A stretch of DNA of 64,000 bases. Origin: Desulfofarcimen acetoxidans DSM 771. Lineage in GTDB: Bacteria; Bacillota; Desulfotomaculia; Desulfotomaculales; Desulfofarciminaceae. Shown piece by piece: positions 52,697 through 64,000 of the stretch. The notes under the pieces were generated by a model. The model did no database searches. It was not told the origin of the DNA and was given only the letters and a program-made list of their open reading frames with translations. How positions within the stretch are numbered: the stretch's first letter is position 1; each line of letters begins with the position of its first letter. The stretch is taken from positions 744,001 to 808,000 of the forward strand of contig NC_013216.1 of assembly GCF_000024205.1 (NCBI RefSeq), given 5' to 3'. A program made the position numbers and the translations under genes.

Positions 52697-52777
52697 AATT
52701 CATTAAAAATTAGCACATAAAAGTTTCGGTTAATTCAAATACTACGCCTGTATCAAAAAAATTCGGAGGTGAAGCAA

Positions 52778-53146
52778 TTGATTCCGAAATCAAGATACGG
52801 CGAGGGTGTTGGTCGCTTAAAAGTCATGCATGACGCTGATTATCCGGGTGGGGTGAGTGTAGACCCTACACCCATTACCGCGGGTCAAAAAACTTATATT
52901 TTGTACAATGGGTTGCTGGCTAAAAGCGGAGCGCATGAAGTATACCTGCATATGGGCTATGGTGATGCCGGGAAATGGCATGGAGTCAAAGAAGTCCGTA
53001 TGGAGCATACAGGTTGGGGTTTTGCCAAAGAATTTGAAGCACCTTTCGACAATAACTTAAACTTTTGTTTCAGGGATAACGCAAATAACTGGGATAATAA
53101 CAACGGGTACAACTGGACTTTCCAAATTCATAACGGCAAAATGTAA
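52778..53146 (+). CDS. Stand-alone starch-binding module (CBM25/53-like)
   Basis: About 122 residues from TTG 52778 (CGGAGGTG site). KTYILYNGLLAKSGAHEVYLHMGYG, then WHGVKEVRM and the C-terminal NLNFCFRDNANNWDNNNGYNW match CBM25/53 modules that bind starch or glycogen. There is no signal peptide and no enzyme domain, so it is likely cytoplasmic and acts with the glycosyltransferase genes downstream. Confidence 0.8.
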   Translation: MIPKSRYGEGVGRLKVMHDADYPGGVSVDPTPITAGQKTYILYNGLLAKSGAHEVYLHMGYGDAGKWHGVKEVRMEHTGWGFAKEFEAPFDNNLNFCFRDNANNWDNNNGYNWTFQIHNGKM

Positions 53147-53151
53147 ATCAA

Positions 53152-53190
53152 AACCCCCCGCCATGAATAATGGCGGGGGGTTGTTTTGTG
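53152..53190 (+). terminator. Strong terminator after the starch-binding gene
   Basis: Perfect 13-bp stem (53152-53164 with 53170-53182), then GTTTTG. Confidence 0.85.
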
Positions 53191-53313
53191 TTCTGGGAAA
53201 TTATGCTTATGATGGCTCTGCGGATAAGTCATTGTTTAGGGATAAATAGAAAATATTTGTACATAATATTAGGATAGAGAATACTGGTATGGAAAGATGA
53301 GGTGGGCAGGGCA

Positions 53314-54567
53314 ATGCGAGTATTGATGTTATCCTGGGAATATCCGCCCAAGTCTGTTGGCGGGCTGGCTCAGCATGTTTACGATCTAACCTCCGCTCTG
53401 ATTAAAGAGGAAACGGAGGTCTTTTTACTGACTTGCGGTTCGCCGGGAGCACCGGAATATGAGCAGATAAATGGCGTGCACGTATACAGGATAAACCCTT
53501 ACCAGGTATCCAGTCCTGATTTTATAACCTGGGTAATGCAGTTAAACGTAGCCATGCTGGAGCGGGCGATTCCTTTAATCAATGATTTGCGCGATATACA
53601 AATTGTACATGCTCATGATTGGTTGGTGGCATATGCCGCCAGGGCGTTAAAGCATGCTCACCAGGTGCCTATGGTGGTTACTATTCATGCTACGGAATAC
53701 GGGCGAAATAACGGTCTGCACAATGATTTGCAAAGGCATATCAGTGATATTGAGTGGTGGTTGTGTTATGAGGCTTGGCGCGTAATTTGCTGCAGTTTTT
53801 ATATGAAAAATGAGTTGAGCTATGTGTTTCAAATCCCTCAGGATAAGCTCAAAGTAATTCCTAACGGTGTTAATCCGGAAAACTTTGTGCTTAAGGAAAG
53901 CAGGCTTTCCAGAGATGATTATGCCGCGCCGGATGAAAAAATCATTTTTTATGTGGGCAGGCTGGTACGGGAAAAGGGTGTTCAGGTTCTCCTGGAGGCA
54001 ATGCCGGATATTTTGAGCCGGCAAGAAAAAACTAAACTCATAATAGCCGGAAAAGGTCCTCATGAGGCTCAATTGCGTGAACAGGCGGTACGGATGGGCA
54101 TAGCGCACAGGGTTTATTTTACCGGCTACATAAATGACGAGGTTAGAAATGCTCTTTACCATTGGGCCGATGTGGCTGTTTTTCCCAGTCTTTACGAGCC
54201 TTTCGGGATAGTTGCTCTGGAAGCGATGGCTGCCAAAACCCCGGTAGTTGTAACGGATAACGGCGGACTAAGCGAGATAGTAATACACGGTGTGGATGGC
54301 TTGAAAGCCTACTGCGGCAACAGTCGTTCTCTGGCCGATAATATTTTGCCCATCCTCCAGCAGCGTAAACTGGCTGCGACACTTAGAGATAATGCCTATA
54401 GAAAAGTGGTAAAAGATTTTAATTGGTCTAAAATAGCTAAAAATACTATTCAAGTGTATAAGGAAGTTTTGAAAGAGCACCGAATGTCAAACTGGTCGGG
54501 ACAAGATAACATGCAGGGTGTAATTGACCGTTTCAGCCGTTTATTTGGTAATGCCAGGACAAGTTGA
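53314..54567 (+). CDS. GT4-family glycosyltransferase, glycogen synthase-like
   Basis: About 417 residues. N-terminal MLSWEYPPKSVGGLAQHV is the nucleotide-sugar synthase start, HAHDWLVAYAA the acceptor site, IFYVGRLVREKGVQ the donor loop, and FPSLYEPFGIVALEAMA the retaining-GT E-x7-E motif. ATG 53314 is chosen with GAGGTGGG 8 bases before; GTG 53302 overlaps that site. Neighbours (starch-binding module, sugar nucleotidyltransferase) support an alpha-glucan role. Confidence 0.85.
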   Translation: MRVLMLSWEYPPKSVGGLAQHVYDLTSALIKEETEVFLLTCGSPGAPEYEQINGVHVYRINPYQVSSPDFITWVMQLNVAMLERAIPLINDLRDIQIVHAHDWLVAYAARALKHAHQVPMVVTIHATEYGRNNGLHNDLQRHISDIEWWLCYEAWRVICCSFYMKNELSYVFQIPQDKLKVIPNGVNPENFVLKESRLSRDDYAAPDEKIIFYVGRLVREKGVQVLLEAMPDILSRQEKTKLIIAGKGPHEAQLREQAVRMGIAHRVYFTGYINDEVRNALYHWADVAVFPSLYEPFGIVALEAMAAKTPVVVTDNGGLSEIVIHGVDGLKAYCGNSRSLADNILPILQQRKLAATLRDNAYRKVVKDFNWSKIAKNTIQVYKEVLKEHRMSNWSGQDNMQGVIDRFSRLFGNARTS

Positions 54568-54604
54568 TATTAAATAAGAAAAAACAGCTGCTAAGGAGGC
54601 TTAG

Positions 54605-57097
54605 ATGAATATGAAAGCAATTATTATGGCCGGCGGGGAAGGTTCCCGGTTAAGACCTCTTACTTGCGGTCGCCCTAAACCGATGGTTCCGGTATTAAAT
54701 AAGCCGGTTATGTGTCATATTATAGATTTGCTCAAGCAGCACGGTATCACGGATATAGGTGTGACTCTACAGTATATGCCGGAAGCTATAAAAGATTATT
54801 TTGGCAGCGGTTCTCAGTTCGGTGTGAATATAAGCTATTTTGTGGAAGAATCTCCTTTGGGTACGGCAGGAAGTGTTAAAAACGCAGGCAACTTTTTGGA
54901 TGAAACCTTTTTGGTAATCAGTGGGGATGCACTGACTGATCTGAACCTGTCAAAAGCTATAGAGTTTCATCGCAATCAGTGCTCGGATGCCACCATTTTA
55001 TTGACCAGGGTTGATTGTCCTTTGGAGTATGGAGTGGTGATTACTGAAGAAAACGGCCGCATCAGGCGGTTTCTGGAGAAGCCCAGTTGGGGAGAAGTTT
55101 TCAGTGATACGGTTAATACCGGTATTTATATTTTGGAACCAGGTGTTTTGGATTATTTTAATCAGGGTCAGGTATTTGATTTCAGTAAAGACCTCTTTCC
55201 CAGGCTGTTAAAGGACAAGAAGCCTCTGTTTGGTCTTGTGCAGCAGGGTTATTGGTGTGATATCGGAAACCTGCGGCAGTACCTGCAGGCGCATTATGAT
55301 GCGCTGTCCGGCAAGGTTAAGATAAGTATACCGGGAAAAGAAATTGCGCAGGGCGTGTGGGTTGGGAAAGGCGCATTAATAAGTGACAGCGTTGAAATGG
55401 AAGGCCCTCTGCTTATAGGTGAGAATTGCCATATAGGCAAAGGGGTAAAACTGGGTTCCTGCAGTGTAATAGGTGAAGGGTGTGTATTAAAAGAGGGTAC
55501 TTCGGTGAAGCGAAGTGTTATCTGGAATCATGTTTTTACAGGTTCCGGGGCGGCGGTTCGCGGCGCTGTCCTGTGCAGCAGGGTGCAGGTGCAGGCTAAC
55601 GCGCAGATTTATGAAGGAGCGGTAATAGGAGATGACTCTGTCATCAGGGAACACGGCATGATTAAACCGGATGTTAAGCTGTGGCCAAACAAATTAGTGG
55701 ATATGGGATCGGTCGTTCAAAGCAGTTTAATCTGGGGCACCAGGCTGCCTAAGAAGATATTTGGGTTGGAGGGGATTACCGGACAGGTTAATGTAGATAT
55801 TACGCCGGAGTATGCCTGCCGGGCAGGCGCGGCCTTTGGTTCCTGTCGTGGGGCAGGTGCCATGGTTGTGGTTAGCTGCGATAATTATCCCTCATCCGGA
55901 ATGATTAAAGACGCTCTCGTGGCAGGTTTGCAGTCTGCCGGAGTAAAAGTTTTCGACCTGGGAATTGGGGTAACCCCCATGCACCGCATGGCAGTGCGTT
56001 TTATGGCGGCTAACGGCGGCATTCATGTCAAAAAATCTCCCTGGCATGAGGAAAAAACAAGTATGCTTTTTACTGACAGCCGGGGAGGCAACATTTCGCG
56101 TGGCGAAGAACGCAAACTGGAAAACATTTTTATGCGAGAAGATTTTCAACGGGCGGATATTAGCAGGTTGAACAAACCACAATCAGTGCATGGCATGCCG
56201 GAGGCTTATATACAGTCCATTGCCAGGCAGGCGCATATTGCTTTACTTGCTGATGCTGGGCTGCGGATAGTTATGATTTATGATAATACGAATTTGGAAA
56301 GATTTATTGCACCTTTATTCAAAGAACTTAATATCGATCTGCTGGATAACTGCCAGGAGGAGCTTGCTGAGGAAGGAAGCTGGTATAATTGCCAGTCTGT
56401 TTTGCCGCAATTATCAAAAAGTGTAGTGGAACAAAATGCTGATCTGGGAGTCATACTTGATCCCAATGCTGACAGCCTGTTGTTGCTGGATGGCTCAGGA
56501 AGGGTGATTAAGGATGAGTTGTTGACAGCTCTGATTGCCCTGGTAATCTTGAAAGAGCAAGGTGGCTCGGTAGTGGTGCCGATTACAGCTCCTCGTATTA
56601 TCGAAACTCTGGCCGGACAATATAGCGGGCAGGTGATAAGAACCAAAACAGCGGTGCAGGATTTTCTGGAGCAAATATTGCAGTTGGAGAATCAGGAGCC
56701 TGGCAGCAGGGTGAGGGGTATTTCACAATTCTTTATGCATTTTGATGCCTTATCCGCGCTGGTAAGAATAATGAGTTTTTGCGTTGAGAATGATATCAGC
56801 TTGGCTGAGCTGGTGGATGAGATCCCTGATTTCTTTCTGGACAAGAAAGAAGTGGCTGTACCCTGGGAGGCAAAAGGTACTGTTATCAGAAAACTTGTGG
56901 AAAATCCGCCTGAAGAACACTTGGAACTGTTGGATGGTGTTAAGGTTTATCATCCCGAGGGTTGGGCACTGGTATTGCCGGATCCTGATAAACCGATTTG
57001 CCGTGTCTTATCTGAGGGGACCTCTATGGAAATCGCTGAATCGCTAACCGACATGTATGTTAATAAGATAAGTGAGATTGTCGGTGCAGCTGTTTAA
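54605..57097 (+). CDS. Sugar nucleotidyltransferase / phosphomannomutase-like fusion
   Basis: 830 residues. N-terminal nucleotidyltransferase (1-235): [32 protein letters not shown] and VISGDAL are intact. Left-handed beta helix (about 250-375). The C-terminal half has the phosphohexomutase fold but the serine loop (TASHNP in active enzymes) is replaced by [13 protein letters not shown], and the metal loop DGDGD by DPNADS. The mutase part is probably not catalytic; a regulatory role is possible. It follows the GT4 gene by 37 bases. Confidence 0.88.
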
Positions 57098-57232: not shown

Positions 57233-58579
57233 CTATAAATTAATACCATATTTTTGCATCCGGTAAAGCAGCGTGGCCCGGGAAATGCCTAAATATTTAG
57301 CCGTTTTGGTTTGGTTGCGGTTGTGTTTCTCCAGAGCTTTAATAATTAAGTGTTTCTCTAATTCCGTAAGGGATATGCCGCTTTCCGGGAGGTTTAGCAC
57401 AGGTGTTTCATATTCCTCAATATTGTCCAGTATCTCTCTGGGTAAATGCGCAGGCTGAATTTCAGACCCCTGGCAAAAGATTAAAGCTCTTTCTATAACA
57501 TTTTGCAGTTCTCTTATATTTCCGGGCCAGTTATATCGGATAAGCAGCTTCATGGCCTCGGGTGAGATTTTTTTGCTGTGGGAAGTGTCAAATTTACCTA
57601 AAAAGTGATTGACCAGCAACGGAATATCATCTTTTCTGACCCTTAAAGGAGGCAGATTAATCCTCATTACGTTTAGCCGGTAGTAAAGATCTTCTCTAAA
57701 AGCTCCTCTGGCTATAGCCAGAGACAGGTCTGAATTAGTGGCGGCAATAATCCTCACATCCACGGATATGGTTTCAGTCCCACCCAATCTTTCAAAAGAT
57801 CTCTCCTGTAAAACCCTTAAAAATTTAACCTGCATGCTAATAGGCATTTCGCCGATTTCATCTAAGAAAATAGTACCCTTGTCCGCTATTTCAAAACGTC
57901 CTTTCTTCTTGTTTAACGCTCCGGTAAAGGCACCTTTTTCATGGCCGAACAACTCACTCTCCAGAAGATGTTCCGGTAAAGCAGCGCAGTTTACCGCGAT
58001 AAAAGGTTTGTCCGAGCGGTTGCTGGCATTATGAATCTCAACTGCCGCAACTTCTTTTCCGGTACCGCTTTCCCCGGTAATTAAAACAGTGGTATTTGTT
58101 TTCGCCACCTGCCGTATAAGGGAGGCTACCTCTTTGGTAGAGTCGCTCTGACCGATCATTCTGCCATATTTGCTGCTCAATTCCTGTCGTAAAAAATCGA
58201 CTTCTGTTTCTAACTGGTGAACATGTAAAGCCTGTTTCAACAGCACCTTTAGCTCATCCAGTTTAAACGGCTTGGTGATATAGTCATTGGCGCCTAGCTT
58301 CATAGCTTCGATAGCCGTCTCAATTGTACCGTGGGCTGTCAGCATGATTACGGGCATACCGGCATTAATTTCTTTGATTTTGCGCAGAGCTTCCATTCCA
58401 TCAATATCAGGCAGCCATAAGTCAAGAATAACGATGGAAGGTTCAATTTCTTGCGCCAGAGCAATTCCTTGCAGGCCTTCCGTGCTGGTTATTACCTGGT
58501 AGCCCTCGTGACTCAGGGCTCTGTCCAAAGCCCAGCACATTTTTTCTTCATCATCAATTACCAATATACGAGGTATCAA
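57233..58579 (-). CDS. NtrC-type sigma-54 response regulator
   Basis: 448 residues. Receiver domain (1-120) with the phospho-Asp in VILDLWLPDIDG and Lys in ITKPFKL; AAA+ domain with GESGTGKE (Walker A), ELFGHEKGAFTGA (the sigma-54 contact loop) and DEIGEMP; C-terminal Fis-type helix-turn-helix (NQTKTAKYLGISRATLLYRMQ). All activator residues look intact. It overlaps the kinase gene by 26 bases, and the pair is divergent from hyfB, where a sigma-54 promoter lies. Confidence 0.95.
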   Translation of the reverse strand: MIPRILVIDDEEKMCWALDRALSHEGYQVITSTEGLQGIALAQEIEPSIVILDLWLPDIDGMEALRKIKEINAGMPVIMLTAHGTIETAIEAMKLGANDYITKPFKLDELKVLLKQALHVHQLETEVDFLRQELSSKYGRMIGQSDSTKEVASLIRQVAKTNTTVLITGESGTGKEVAAVEIHNASNRSDKPFIAVNCAALPEHLLESELFGHEKGAFTGALNKKKGRFEIADKGTIFLDEIGEMPISMQVKFLRVLQERSFERLGGTETISVDVRIIAATNSDLSLAIARGAFREDLYYRLNVMRINLPPLRVRKDDIPLLVNHFLGKFDTSHSKKISPEAMKLLIRYNWPGNIRELQNVIERALIFCQGSEIQPAHLPREILDNIEEYETPVLNLPESGISLTELEKHLIIKALEKHNRNQTKTAKYLGISRATLLYRMQKYGINL

Positions 58580-60122
58580 CTTGACCGCCCCCTTTAAAAT
58601 GATTTTGCTCTACGGGAAGTATGATGGTGAAAATTGCGCCTTGTCCCCGGATGCTGTCAACTTTAATAGTTCCTCCATGCATATTCAGGTTTTGATAGCA
58701 AATAGGCAGGCCCAGCCCTGTTCCTGTTGCTTTAGTGGTATAAAAGGGATCAAAGATTAATGTCTTCAGCTCAGGGGAAATGCCTTCACCTGAATCCTTG
58801 AATTGAATGGATAGGAATTTATCCTTGCAAGTAGTCGTTATTTCCATCATTCCACCATCAGGCATGGCTTCGGCGGCATTAACAATGAGGTTAACGAAGA
58901 CTTGTTTTAATTTCTCTGTATCTACCCAAATTAGCGGTATTGACTCTTGAAAGGCCAGGTGAACTGTTATATTTTGTTTTCTCAACATGGCGCTGGAAAA
59001 GGATAGGACGCCGGTCAACAAGTCGTTAACCGAACATTTCTTAAATGCGCATTTGCTTGGCCGGCCAAAATCAAGCAATTCCTGTATGACAGTATTTTGG
59101 CGGTCAACCTGCTCCTCTATAGATCTGGTGAATTCCTCAATGCCCGTCACCAGTGAATATTCATTATGCATCAACTCTGCCAGGGTTTTTATAATACCGG
59201 CCGGATTTCTAAGTTCGTGCGCAACTCCTGTGGCTAAACGTCCCAAGGCTATCAGGTGTTCGGATTGTCTCAGTTGGTTTTCTAATCTTTCTTTTTCAGA
59301 TAGTGCCACAGCCATTTTATTTATTGCTGCTGCTACTTGTCCCAATTCTCCGCTCATTTCCGGCAGCAGCAGGTGAATATCCTTCTCCATATCCTGCAGG
59401 CCGCGTTTCAACCGGTTGACTCCTGTGGTGATATTGCGCACAATGAATAAGGTGCCGGCAATGCCCAGGGCCAGCACGAAAATTATAAAATAGCGTACCA
59501 GTTTTCTGAAGTAACTGTTCTGATAGAATATGGGATTTAGTCTTTCTCCTGCCCACATGACTGCAATCAGCTTGTTTTGAACTATTACGGGGCAAATATA
59601 TTCCACTACCTGGTCGTCCCAGGTACCGGTAATTCTAAAAAGAGGTTCTTTGCTCATTTGGGTTGCCACCAAACCTGATTTTGTTTTCTTAAAAATATCT
59701 TTTTCTCTTATGGTTTCTTCTTCAGGCGATAGATTGCGGTAATTATGCAGAAAGCCTAAGACTGTTATTTTATTGGAATCCGGGACATAGAGACCGAAGC
59801 GAATACCTGTATTGGCCGGCACATAGGGCTGTATGACATTAACAAATGTTTTATGCAGGACTGTTTGAGCCAGCGCCTGCGTGTCGCTTTCAGTATTGAC
59901 AAGATTCTTAATATATTCCTCTTTAGCGCTGTTGACCAGGGATTCCAATCTTTTCTCTTTATCCAAGAAAACTACTTTATCTGTGCGGGAGGCAAAGGAA
60001 ATATCATAGATTAAAGCCGCAAGCGGAATAAGCATAATGGCGGCAGTAATAATTATAATTTGATTCGTAAGGCTTTTTTCGTGAAAGAAGGAAAAATATT
60101 GTTGAAATTTCAGGTTAATCAT
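58554..60122 (-). CDS. Membrane sensor histidine kinase
   Basis: 522 residues. Membrane segment near 20-43, an outside sensor domain to about 205 (Cache-like), second membrane segment near 206-228, HAMP-like linker, then HisKA with the phospho-His in GVAHELRNPAG, and an ATPase domain with VNLIVNAAEAMP, DSGEGISPE and TGTGLGLPIC. It belongs to the NtrB/ZraS-type kinases that act with sigma-54 regulators. The signal is unknown; the neighbouring hydrogenase suggests a redox or fermentation cue. Confidence 0.93.
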   Translation of the reverse strand: MINLKFQQYFSFFHEKSLTNQIIIITAAIMLIPLAALIYDISFASRTDKVVFLDKEKRLESLVNSAKEEYIKNLVNTESDTQALAQTVLHKTFVNVIQPYVPANTGIRFGLYVPDSNKITVLGFLHNYRNLSPEEETIREKDIFKKTKSGLVATQMSKEPLFRITGTWDDQVVEYICPVIVQNKLIAVMWAGERLNPIFYQNSYFRKLVRYFIIFVLALGIAGTLFIVRNITTGVNRLKRGLQDMEKDIHLLLPEMSGELGQVAAAINKMAVALSEKERLENQLRQSEHLIALGRLATGVAHELRNPAGIIKTLAELMHNEYSLVTGIEEFTRSIEEQVDRQNTVIQELLDFGRPSKCAFKKCSVNDLLTGVLSFSSAMLRKQNITVHLAFQESIPLIWVDTEKLKQVFVNLIVNAAEAMPDGGMMEITTTCKDKFLSIQFKDSGEGISPELKTLIFDPFYTTKATGTGLGLPICYQNLNMHGGTIKVDSIRGQGAIFTIILPVEQNHFKGGGQVDTSYIGN

Positions 60123-60134
60123 CCTTTCCCGCCT

Positions 60135-60144
60135 GTATTAATAC
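60135..60144. promoter_or_regulatory. Palindrome P1, candidate regulator site
   Basis: GTATTAATAC, within a 14-base string (GCCTGTATTAATAC) repeated exactly at 60388-60401. It lies just upstream of the kinase start, so it may also influence the kinase gene. Confidence 0.4.
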
Positions 60145-60150
60145 CTCAAA

Positions 60151-60166
60151 TGCATTATATAATACA
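60151..60166. promoter_or_regulatory. Palindrome P2, candidate enhancer site
   Basis: TGCATTATATAATACA, a 16-base palindrome with one imperfect pair, differing at one base from the palindrome at 60248. About 250 bases upstream of the sigma-54 promoter, a typical distance for NtrC-type enhancers. Confidence 0.55.
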
Positions 60167-60247
60167 TATCCCTGTAGGAAAAGATTCATTTTTAAAAAGT
60201 CCCGCCAAATAATTTTTTCGAGTAGATACTGCTTAATTGCAACTAAT

Positions 60248-60263
60248 TGTATTATATAATACA
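60248..60263. promoter_or_regulatory. Palindrome P3, candidate enhancer site
   Basis: TGTATTATATAATACA, a perfect 16-base palindrome about 150 bases upstream of the sigma-54 promoter. Most likely a dimer site for the adjacent NtrC-type regulator. Confidence 0.6.
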
Positions 60264-60391
60264 GCGATGAATTAGATAGTGCATTGGTGCAGCAAATAAG
60301 ACAGCCATTTGGAGTGTTGAAATTGCAGTGTTTTTGTGAATAATCCGAAAAGTGTTGTAGCATATGATGCAGTTCGAGTTGCCGTTTGCCT

Positions 60392-60401
60392 GTATTAATA
60401 C
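60392..60401. promoter_or_regulatory. Palindrome P4, candidate regulator site
   Basis: GTATTAATAC, second copy of P1, 12 bases before the -24 element. It shares the GTATTA/TAATAC half-sites with P2 and P3. Confidence 0.4.
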
Positions 60402-60413
60402 GGCCTTTAATAA

Positions 60414-60430
60414 TGGTACATCTCTTGCAT
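60414..60430 (+). promoter_or_regulatory. Sigma-54 promoter of the hyf operon
   Basis: TGGTAC-ATCTC-TTGCAT: the GG and GC doublets are separated by exactly 10 bases and only one base of TGGCAC-N5-TTGCA is changed. It faces hyfB, with about 100 bases of leader. Confidence 0.75.
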
Positions 60431-60538
60431 AAAGTGTTTGCGGGTGCTATGTACAGAGTGACTGCGCGCGCTGCTCTTTTAGTACTTTTATATATATTAA
60501 TTGTTGATAATATTAATTTTTGATTTGGAGGCTGCATA

Positions 60539-62524
60539 ATGATTGGTGGTATGCAAGAGCAGTTAGGATTAATGGTTATTCTTCTGTACCTTTCAGGGGC
60601 TATTCTCCCATTGCTGCTCAAGACCAGCCGAAAACTGTCCCTGTGGCTGGGCTGCTTTTTAGGAGGGGCCGCCGGTTTACTGGGTTTGGGATTGGGTCTG
60701 GCATCGTTGTTGGCACCCGAACCCTGGACCGTTAATCTGGGAACGGTTTTGCCGGGAGTTGTTTTTCAGATTGTTATGGACGGGTTAAGCGGTTTTTTTG
60801 TGGCTACAATTTCGCTGGTTGTAGCTCTGGTAAGCTTTTATTCCTGGAATTATATGAGTATTTATAAAACTGAGAATATTGCCTGGTGGAGTTTTTGCTA
60901 TAATGTTTTTGTTTTGTCCATGCTTTTGGTGGTAACTGTCACCAATGCCATCATGTTTCTTATTTTCTGGGAACTAATGACTCTAGCTTCTTATTTTCTG
61001 GTTACTTTTGAATATCGCCACCAGCAGGTGCGCAAAGCCGGTTTTAGTTATATTGTCATGACGCACCTCGGCACAGTTTTTATTATGACAGCTTTCTTTT
61101 TGATGTTTAAAGGTACCGGGGGATGGGATTTTGCTGTTTTGTCCGCTAACAGCCATGGTTTGCCGGACGCAGTAAAGAGCCTGATTTTTGTTTGCGCATT
61201 AATCGGTTTTGGGACTAAAGCCGGTATTGTTCCGCTGCATATCTGGCTGCCGTTGGCGCACCCGGCTGCTCCCAGCAATGTATCCGCGGTGATGAGCGGT
61301 GTTATGTTGAAAACGGCTATATACGGTATGATTCGTCTGATTATTGATATTTTAGGTCCGGGCCCTGCCTGGTGGGGCGGTGTAGTACTGGCAGTCGGCG
61401 TAGTTTCAGCTGTCATGGGTGTTTTATATGCTTTGATGGAACATGACATGAAGCGGCTTCTGGCTTTTCACAGTGTGGAGAATATAGGCATTATTCTGAT
61501 GGGCTTAGGGACAGCGCTTATTTTTTATGCCTGGTCTATGCCTGTTGCCGCCGCTGTTGCCCTGGCGGCCGGGCTGTTTCATGTGCTGAATCACGCTATT
61601 TTTAAAAGCCTTTTGTTTTTGGGGACTGGCTCGGTCTATTATACAACTCACAGCAAGGATATTGAGGAATTGGGCGGGCTGATTAAAAAAATGCCGCAAA
61701 CAGCACTGCTTTTTCTGGTCGGAGCTATATCTATATCAGCTATACCTCCGTTTAACGGTTTTGCCAGTGAATATCAAATATATCAATCTTTATTGGGTAT
61801 GTCTTATCAAAAAGTATCTGCGTTCTGGAGTATTGCCGGTGTTTTATCCGGAGTTGCTCTGGCTTTGACAGGCGCTTTAGCTGCAGCCTGTTTTGTTAAG
61901 GCCTTTGGAATCAGCTTTCTGGCACTGCCCAGAACAAAAAAGGCGGCCGCGGCTGAGGAAGTACCCTTTTTGATGAGAATAAGTATGGCCCCTCTGGCTG
62001 TGTTATGTCTGCTTTTCGGTGTTGCCCCGGGATTGGTATTGAATAATATAACGCCTTTAATCGAACAACTGGTGCCTGGAACGCCACTGCCTGAAATTGC
62101 GACTTACAATATGAATTTAACTTTGCTGCTTGTATTGGTCGGTGTTTTTCTCTTTGTTGCCAGTAAGCTGACGGGGGCCAAGAAAGTCAGGCGGACCGAA
62201 ACCTGGGGCTGCGGCATAGAATTAACCGCCGAGATGGAATATACCGCTGCTTCCTTTTCTCAGCCTGTGCGCAGGACTTATCGTGCAATTCTACAGCCTA
62301 AAAGGAAGGTGAAAAACAATTACCGGTTGTTGCCTTATTTCGATTTCCATATTCACTTTGATGAACATGTTAGACCGGTTATTGAGGATTTCTTATATAA
62401 TCCCTTGAGAAAAACGATTATTAAAACCTCAAAAATATGGCAGCATATTCAGAGCGGGAGTATAAATTTATATCTCGGCTATATCTTTATAACGCTGGTA
62501 GTTTTGCTGGTTTGGGCCAGATAG
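60539..62524 (+). CDS. hyfB: Hydrogenase-4 component B-like proton-pumping subunit
   Basis: 661 residues, about 14-16 membrane segments, of the NuoL/MrpA antiporter type. IFWELMTLASYFLVTFEYRH carries the conserved Glu, FGTKAGIVPLHIWLPLAHPAAPS the conserved Lys, and HDMKRLLAFHSVENIG the next Lys/His group, so the proton path seems intact. Start ATG 60539 after TTGGAGG. First gene of an operon with hyfC and hyfE, 108 bases after the sigma-54 promoter. Confidence 0.88.
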   Translation: MIGGMQEQLGLMVILLYLSGAILPLLLKTSRKLSLWLGCFLGGAAGLLGLGLGLASLLAPEPWTVNLGTVLPGVVFQIVMDGLSGFFVATISLVVALVSFYSWNYMSIYKTENIAWWSFCYNVFVLSMLLVVTVTNAIMFLIFWELMTLASYFLVTFEYRHQQVRKAGFSYIVMTHLGTVFIMTAFFLMFKGTGGWDFAVLSANSHGLPDAVKSLIFVCALIGFGTKAGIVPLHIWLPLAHPAAPSNVSAVMSGVMLKTAIYGMIRLIIDILGPGPAWWGGVVLAVGVVSAVMGVLYALMEHDMKRLLAFHSVENIGIILMGLGTALIFYAWSMPVAAAVALAAGLFHVLNHAIFKSLLFLGTGSVYYTTHSKDIEELGGLIKKMPQTALLFLVGAISISAIPPFNGFASEYQIYQSLLGMSYQKVSAFWSIAGVLSGVALALTGALAAACFVKAFGISFLALPRTKKAAAAEEVPFLMRISMAPLAVLCLLFGVAPGLVLNNITPLIEQLVPGTPLPEIATYNMNLTLLLVLVGVFLFVASKLTGAKKVRRTETWGCGIELTAEMEYTAASFSQPVRRTYRAILQPKRKVKNNYRLLPYFDFHIHFDEHVRPVIEDFLYNPLRKTIIKTSKIWQHIQSGSINLYLGYIFITLVVLLVWAR

Positions 62525-62536
62525 GAGGTTTAAACT

Positions 62537-63436
62537 GTGTCTGATCAATTGGTTATTATGGGCGGGCAAATTATTTTGTTATTGCTCTTGGCGCCTCTGG
62601 TGAACGGTATTATTAAGAAAACCAAAGCATTGATGCAATGCAGGCGCGGCCCCGGTATTTTTCAGCCTTATTTTGATGTGATCAAGTTTTTAAAGCGGGA
62701 ACCGGTGGTATCGGACAATACATCATGGATTACCCTTTTAACCCCGTATGTTTGTTTGACTGCTTACCTGACTGCTGGCAGTTTGATCCCTATGTGGGTG
62801 AAGACCGGTTTTGGTTTTGGTGATTTGATTGCTTTAACCTATCTTTTTGCCTTGTCCAGATTCTTTCTTGCTTTAGCAGGCTTGGAACCGGCCAGTGCCT
62901 TCGGAGGCATGGGTTCGAGCAGGGAGATGATGATTGCAACTCTGGTTGAACCGGTAATGGTAACAGGTTTATTTGGACTGGCTTTACTGGCTGGAACTAC
63001 AGATCTGGCAGGCATCAGGGGTGCCGGGCACAATCCGGTGGGTCTGTTGGCTTTTATCGGCTTAATGTTTGTAACGGTAGCGGAAACGGGTCGTATTCCG
63101 GTGGATAATCCTGATACACACCTTGAATTGACTATGGTGCACGAAGCTATGCTGTTGGAATATGCCGGGAGACAGGTGGGCTTTTTGCACCTGGCGGCTA
63201 TGGTTAAACAAACGGTGCTGCTGGTTCTTTTGATACACTTATTTTGGCCTCTGGCTGCAGGTGCTTCTCCGGCTCTGGCACTGTTGATTATGATTGGAAA
63301 AGTGATTGTTTTAGGATTGGCTCTGGCTGTGATTGAAACAAGCATGGCCAAGATGAGGTTGTTTAAGCTGCCGGAACTGATGGCAGGGGGAGCTACCTTT
63401 TGCCTGCTGGCATTGTTAATTTATTGTTTGGTATAG
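62537..63436 (+). CDS. hyfC: Hydrogenase-4 component C-like membrane subunit
   Basis: 299 residues, NuoH/HycD family, eight membrane segments. TKALMQCRRGPGIFQPY and the loop ETGRIPVDNPDTHLELTMVHE are the conserved quinone-/ion-channel motifs of this family. It links the hydrogenase module to the pump. GTG 62537 after GGAGG. Confidence 0.9.
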   Translation: MSDQLVIMGGQIILLLLLAPLVNGIIKKTKALMQCRRGPGIFQPYFDVIKFLKREPVVSDNTSWITLLTPYVCLTAYLTAGSLIPMWVKTGFGFGDLIALTYLFALSRFFLALAGLEPASAFGGMGSSREMMIATLVEPVMVTGLFGLALLAGTTDLAGIRGAGHNPVGLLAFIGLMFVTVAETGRIPVDNPDTHLELTMVHEAMLLEYAGRQVGFLHLAAMVKQTVLLVLLIHLFWPLAAGASPALALLIMIGKVIVLGLALAVIETSMAKMRLFKLPELMAGGATFCLLALLIYCLV

Positions 63437-63447
63437 GGGGGGTTAGG

Positions 63448-64000
63448 GTGCTTGTAGTTGATTTTTTGGCAGTGGTTTTTCTGATGTCAGGCTTATTAAT
63501 GCTGGCCGGCAAGAGTATTCCGAATAATATAAATCTGCTGGCTGTTCAGTCCCTGGCTTTAAGCAGCATGGCTTTCTATATGGGTTATAACCAGGGTGCA
63601 AATGGTACACATATGTTTTTAGTGGGCGGGTTGACCCTGCTAATCAAGGTGGTTATTCTGCCCTGGGTGCTCTTTAAGCTGGTTTACAGCGTTAAGGTTG
63701 ACCGGGAAGCTTCCCTTTCCGTGGGTTTGATTCCTTCTATTTTAATAGGCATATTATTAATAGGTCTTTCTTATGACTATGCAGTACCTGTTCTGCTGGA
63801 GGAACTCCCCGGAGGTCACCTGCTTTCAGCCGCTCTATCCACAGTTTTGCTGGGCTGTTTTTTTATGATCAGCAGGCGAACCGCTATAAGCCAGTTAATT
63901 GGTATAGTAGTTATGGAAAACGGGTTGTTTTTGTGCGCTGTTGCTGTTACCGGAGGCATGCCTCTGATTATTGAACTGGGTATTTTCTTTGACGTTTTAG
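63448..64000 (+). CDS. hyfE: Hydrogenase-4 component E-like subunit, 5' part
   Basis: Starts at GTG 63448 after GGGGGGGTTAGG and stays open to the window end (184 codons). Six or more membrane segments; LLAVQSLALSSMAFYMGY, LIKVVILPWVLFKL and SQLIGIVVMENGLFL are the NuoK/HyfE-type motifs. The rest of the operon, with the catalytic hydrogenase subunits if present, lies beyond the window. Confidence 0.88.
   Translation, partial: MLVVDFLAVVFLMSGLLMLAGKSIPNNINLLAVQSLALSSMAFYMGYNQGANGTHMFLVGGLTLLIKVVILPWVLFKLVYSVKVDREASLSVGLIPSILIGILLIGLSYDYAVPVLLEELPGGHLLSAALSTVLLGCFFMISRRTAISQLIGIVVMENGLFLCAVAVTGGMPLIIELGIFFDVL

Follow-up and report, generated by a model that had tools for sequence, protein, structure and literature searches.

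A predicted sigma-54 promoter and conserved regulator sites lie between a kinase/regulator pair and a hydrogenase-4-type operon in Desulfofarcimen acetoxidans

The complete, single-contig genome of Desulfofarcimen (Desulfotomaculum) acetoxidans DSM 771 is 4,545,624 bp long. We analyzed bases 744001–808000, a stretch of 64,000 nucleotides that is called the window here. Positions 60123–60538 of the window are exactly the intergenic gap between a membrane histidine kinase gene (58554–60122, minus strand) and hyfB (60539–62524, plus strand). A domain search and a model of the sensor showed that the kinase has a single extracytoplasmic Cache/PAS-like sensor followed by HAMP, HisKA (His302), and HATPase domains. 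Leftward from the gap, the kinase gene is followed by a gene for an NtrC-family response regulator (57233–58579, minus strand), a predicted activator with the Pfam domains Response_reg, Sigma54_activat, and HTH_8. The receiver Asp53, the GESGTGKE and GAFTGA motifs, and a Fis-type helix-turn-helix (HTH) were all present in the regulator. The original prediction of a divergent operon encoding a membrane kinase and an NtrC-type regulator with intact GAFTGA was thus borne out by both motifs and Pfam domains.

On the other side of the gap, the hyfB-like gene encodes a membrane subunit that matched the NCBIfam profile of hydrogenase 4 subunit B with 680.5 bits, above the cut-off. It is followed by genes for a hyfC/NuoH-like membrane subunit (62537–63436, plus strand; Pfam NADHdh) and a hyfE-like subunit (63430–64000, plus strand), whose start is approximate and which continues beyond the window. 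Outside the window (L036, 7089–10870), the operon goes on with hyfF, hyfG, in which the 30-kDa and large subunits are fused, and hyfI, the ferredoxin-type/small subunit. The D. acetoxidans genome paper listed a "[NiFe]-hydrogenase (Dtox_0791 to 0796)" of six genes (PMC3035247), which we infer to be the operon studied here, as the gene number fits. Glycogen-type genes were found on both sides of the kinase/regulator pair and the hyf operon (window 52769–57097 and L036 11368–15559), with CBM53, glycosyltransferase, and nucleotidyltransferase/PGM genes on the left flank and GH57 branching enzyme and DUF4912 genes on the right. Besides the pair and the hyf genes, the interval between them contains a PemK/MazF-like toxin gene and one of the YaaH family. 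The block of pair and hyf genes looks as if it had been inserted into a glycogen-type cluster.

A motif scan of the gap identified the -24/-12 (sigma-54) promoter element TGGTACATCTCTTGCA at 60414–60429 on the strand of hyfB, in which GG and GC are separated by 10 bases. It was the only zero-mismatch match to TGGYAC-N5-TTGCW in the 64 kb, which agrees with the earlier claim of an element with exact 10-base spacing directed at hyfB. Of 2000 dinucleotide-shuffled versions of the gap, only 10 contained a perfect plus-strand element. Among 86 control upstream regions, taken from this window and from seven hyf loci of relatives, one had a perfect element, namely the hyfB gap itself. The rpoN gene is present in the D. 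acetoxidans genome. From the position of the element, the hyfB transcript would be expected to start near 60440, giving a leader of about 100 nt with GGAGG ahead of the ATG.

We compared the gap with 25 other loci that carry the same kinase/regulator pair in Desulfotomaculales and Desulfosporosinus. Six further genomes of the order encode full-length kinase orthologues with 61–69% identity, and orthologues were also found in Desulfosporosinus, Desulforadius, and Desulforamulus records. The regulator orthologues, located directly after the kinase, were full length, shared 70–83% identity, and had an HTH that hardly differed. Twenty-three of the 25 relatives had a -24/-12 element on the upstream side of the kinase, directed away from it (22 strict matches and one with TGGAAC). 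The two relatives without it (L126 and L139) have a 213-aa gene upstream of the kinase in the same, not divergent, direction. In all 23 relatives with a -24/-12 element, sites of the TGTA-N8-TACA type precede the promoter. Close to the kinase start, the relatives have a tandem pair of sites, TGAATTATATAATACA and TGTAGCAAAAGATACA, 22 bp apart, and in many Desulfosporosinus loci the site TGTAGCATTTGCTACA is located 66–68 bp upstream of the -24 element, compared to 58 bp for its counterpart in D. acetoxidans. One locus (L068) has a long inverted repeat, AAGAGGTGTTGCAATTGCTACACCTCTT plus flanks, between the kinase-proximal sites and the -24/-12 element, near the position of the proximal site.

A site matrix built from the relatives' sites alone, leaving out this locus, recovered five sites with scores of at least 8 in the gap, at 60356, 60248, 60151, 60173, and 60288. 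Shuffled gaps had an average of 0.07 such sites, and five were reached in 0 of 2000 shuffles. The predicted kinase-proximal sites are K1 (TGCATTATATAATACA, 60151–60166, score 16.8) and, 22 bp from it, K2 (TGTAGGAAAAGATTCA, 60173–60188, score 15.7). The counterpart of K1 has the same position in relatives, about 30–40 nt upstream of the kinase start, and the pair with its 22-bp step is conserved. Predicted site M1 (TGTATTATATAATACA, 60248–60263, score 19.1) is 166 bp upstream of the -24 element, and the predicted promoter-proximal site P (TGTAGCATATGATGCA, 60356–60371) is 58 bp upstream of it. The score of site P (21.2) was the highest in the 64-kb window. Two further matches are tentative: a weaker site TGCAGCAAATAAGACA (60288–60303, score 12.6) and a weak match TGAATTAGATAGTGCA 20 bp from M1 (60268–60283, score 3.9).

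These results only partly agree with the palindromes listed in the original prediction, which comprised two 16-mers and two 10-mers regarded as one related family. The two 16-mers, TGCATTATATAATACA (60151–60166) and TGTATTATATAATACA (60248–60263), do differ by a single base, and both match the relatives' matrix. The 10-mers, the palindrome GTATTAATAC inside an identical 14-mer, are present as described: GCCTGTATTAATAC occurs at 60131–60144 and 60388–60401, both on the plus strand, and the 4.55-Mb genome has no other exact copy of it. However, the 10-mers scored 3.1 and 0.5, compared to 16–21 for the regulator sites, and they were missing in relatives, so that they were rejected as sites of the adjacent regulator and the proposed family holds for the 16-mers alone. 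The earlier list had also overlooked the sites at 60173 and 60356, the latter being the best site, and the weaker ones at 60268 and 60288.

The presence of sites next to the kinase raises an alternative, in which all of them would serve autoregulation of the kinase/regulator operon only, the -24/-12 element would be a chance match or a relic, and hyf would be transcribed from a sigma-A promoter in the gap. Counted from the kinase start, K1 and K2 indeed lie 29–66 nt upstream, overlapping the position expected for the kinase promoter. Two sigma-70-like matches (60317 and 60386) are oriented to hyfB, but their number is as expected by chance, since a sigma-70 scan of the gap gave no more matches than the shuffles did. 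Against this alternative, the best site and M1 are on the hyf side, and the perfect -24/-12 element is both rare in shuffles and control regions and matched by a counterpart in nearly all relatives. We consider autoregulation as the only role of the sites to be very improbable, while some of the kinase-near sites could serve it alone.

At the genome scale, site P was the sole zero-mismatch match to the promoter-proximal consensus. Of 25 genome match regions checked, the hyf gap was the only one with a perfect -24/-12 element close downstream; two further regions each had a candidate with one mismatch, at 143 bp in one and 295 bp in the other. Judged from these matches, the circuit is likely dedicated to one operon. 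The D. acetoxidans genome contains two more TauE/kinase/NtrC-regulator clusters (L118, 6258–12286, and L119, 1819–9690; at about 1,030 and 989 kb of the genome), which also have CBS-domain-like proteins and -24/-12 elements. With at least two such systems in the genome, the hyf promoter could be driven by another enhancer-binding protein, for example the regulator of either TauE-linked cluster. However, these regulators are only 45% identical to the one next to hyf and have different HTH sequences, and the sites in the hyf gap match those beside orthologues of the adjacent regulator. We give hardly any credence to another activator. The original proposal, in which the neighbouring NtrC-type regulator would act through enhancer sites on a sigma-54 promoter, is supported by the conserved sites and promoter together with rpoN, and the link of both to hyf is, as far as comparative sequence data go, well supported.

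In contrast to the pair, the sites, and the -24/-12 element, which were all conserved as the original prediction would require, the hyf neighbour was found in 0 of 25 relatives and occurs in the window only. The gene at the promoter encodes a TauE/SafE permease in 13 relatives; in one, a TauE-type permease is accompanied by a second membrane protein, nine have a 213-aa protein there, and two have ChrA-like transporters. These counts include some loci cut by contig ends or gaps. The 213-aa protein had no match in Pfam or NCBIfam; its family (L133, 9044–9688, and similar) is the promoter neighbour in many Desulfosporosinus loci. At the divergent promoter of D. acetoxidans, hyfB stands in the place of the TauE/SafE gene, which is absent there. 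Most members of the next kinase clade (about 45% identity) are likewise linked to TauE. In L169, a near relative, the facing gene encodes a diguanylate cyclase. In the kinase tree, the outgroup and many relatives were TauE-linked and hyf appeared once, with 8 neighbour changes over five output classes, where L082–L084 were scored as TauE although CBS-domain genes occupy that position.

The hyf operon was also traced independently of the pair. Close hyfBCEFGI operons (66–70% identity) were found in seven genomes (G027, G028, G031, G050, G057, G058, and G188), with neither an adjoining pair nor a -24/-12 element upstream of hyfB. A survey of 113 genomes from the order, plus 398 sampled from the phylum, gave no divergent pair of this kind at the other hyf loci examined. 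D. ruminis (G057) has a TauE-linked pair as well as the hyf operon, at widely separated positions. In G028, the same hyf operon is on two contigs (L109 and L110), which may reflect duplication or an assembly artefact.

Since hyf neighbours the pair in one genome only and TauE is the commonest neighbour, two unrelated units might have come to lie back to back after a rearrangement, with the promoter and sites being leftovers of the TauE output that are irrelevant to hyf. The sites and the -24/-12 element are nevertheless intact, the number of sites exceeds that of most relatives, and the leader of about 100 nt with its GGAGG is the layout of a working promoter, which makes mere leftovers highly unlikely. 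The hyf link instead appears to be derived, with a transporter-type circuit re-aimed at a new output; this reading draws on gene neighbourhoods and the kinase tree. In its simplest form, the permease would be the older output, and hyf would have come under sites of this kind later, in this lineage. By parsimony, TauE would be the ancestral output, which falls short of proof because the placement of the window kinase at the base of the group is not settled in the tree. The hyf promoter may also have arisen de novo, because the sequence directly following its -12 element is unlike that of the relatives' promoters.

Taken together, the most probable interpretation is a circuit descended from a TauE-output one, in which the kinase signals to the regulator and the regulator acts at TGTA-N8-TACA sites on sigma-54 transcription of hyfBCEFGI. 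By analogy with the NtrC family, the kinase, through its outward-facing Cache-type sensor domain, would phosphorylate the adjoining NtrC-type regulator. The regulator would then bind the sites in the divergent gap, namely the K1/K2 tandem near the kinase, M1, and P by the promoter, and its GAFTGA ATPase would open the sigma-54 polymerase at the -24/-12 element, so that hyfBCEFGI would be transcribed from about 60440. K1 and K2 probably also tune the kinase/regulator operon by touching the kinase's own promoter. In the D. acetoxidans lineage, the hyf/Ehr-type operon would have replaced the TauE/SafE permease as the neighbouring output.

The input of the circuit was approached through structure models. 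The model of the extracytoplasmic sensor, which is of moderate confidence (pLDDT 74), has a Cache/PAS-like fold, and its matches include WalK/YycG (Z 12.2), CitA (about 10), DcuS (9.8), and a formate chemoreceptor (9.6); the comparison of the sensor alone gave a fold but named no ligand. The full-length kinase model had a mean pLDDT of 65, and its matches reflect the kinase core only. The sensor sequences of relatives with differing outputs are about 58–68% identical, and because this identity is kept despite the different outputs, a common signal across relatives is suggested.

Whether the output is a true hydrogenase is less clear. Among solved structures, HyfG is closest to HycE from the E. 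coli formate hydrogenlyase (7z0s). The four NiFe-binding cysteines, in two CxxC pairs (RVCGVC and CYAC), are kept in 7 of 7 homologues and align with HycE. HyfG ends directly after CYACLDR and therefore has no C-terminal extension to be cleaved. HypD is required for the NiFe cofactor. A single search with hypD as the one marker gave no match in the complete genome of D. acetoxidans but was positive in 4 of 14 genomes as controls. The identity of the complex as a "hydrogenase" is uncertain because hypD was not found, and the original label of a hydrogenase-4-type operon has the four cysteines in its favor and the lack of a hypD match against it.

The same six-subunit complex of D. ruminis (Desru_3260–3265, which we take to be our locus L111) was called an Ehr complex and possibly a true hydrogenase (PMC3569383). 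Its large subunit is 68% identical to that of D. acetoxidans and keeps the four NiFe cysteines, but the D. ruminis operon has neither a neighbouring regulator pair nor an adjacent -24/-12 element. A more speculative and rather unlikely extension is that an anion-transporter-type sensor circuit was re-aimed at a complex that, with NiFe ligands in a genome without Hyp machinery, would be a non-hydrogenase redox-driven ion pump responding to the same outside signal as the relatives' permease.

The circuit looks like one that kept its DNA address code and changed the controlled target. The protein pair and its DNA sites remained recognisable while the neighbour gene was switched several times, among TauE/SafE, ChrA-like, an unknown protein, and hyf/Ehr, and these natural variants make regulatory rewiring testable. 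The locus also provides a regulatory lead for a D. acetoxidans complex that is annotated as a [NiFe] hydrogenase although maturation genes are seemingly missing.

The E. coli hyc and hyf operons have sigma-54 promoters and TGT/ACA-type upstream sites and depend on FhlA/HyfR, which sense formate as one-component regulators. The D. acetoxidans locus shares with them the sigma-54 promoter, upstream TGT/ACA-type sites, and a hyf-type output, but its regulator has a receiver domain and a kinase, and no GAF domain was found in it. In this respect the original suggestion of a different input circuit holds, whereas control of sigma-54 hydrogenase promoters by a kinase pair is already known from HoxJ/HoxA (HupT/HupR), a histidine kinase and an NtrC-type regulator acting on uptake-hydrogenase promoters (PMC10073562). 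In that system, H2 is sensed by a regulatory hydrogenase, and HoxA activates when it is not phosphorylated (PMC10073562). The D. acetoxidans kinase carries an extracytoplasmic Cache-like domain of its own, and its circuit has a group-4-like membrane complex as the output. The closest curated families are AtoSC and ZraSR for the kinase and regulator, with all scores below the curated cut-offs. In the main text of a study of Clostridiales sigma-54 regulons, an XhpR group of enhancer-binding proteins in Desulfosporosinus and Desulfotomaculum is given the target "hyp-memP" and TGT-N10-12-ACA sites, with no hyf target (PMC6615313). Its taxa, target, and motif agree with those relatives of our regulator that have a small ORF and a TauE membrane protein, and judging from that account the two groups are probably the same. 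No description of TauE with sigma-54 pairs was found in the literature beyond that study. Compared to these systems, what is new here is the hyf/Ehr output, an overlooked enhancer, and a constant circuit with changing outputs.
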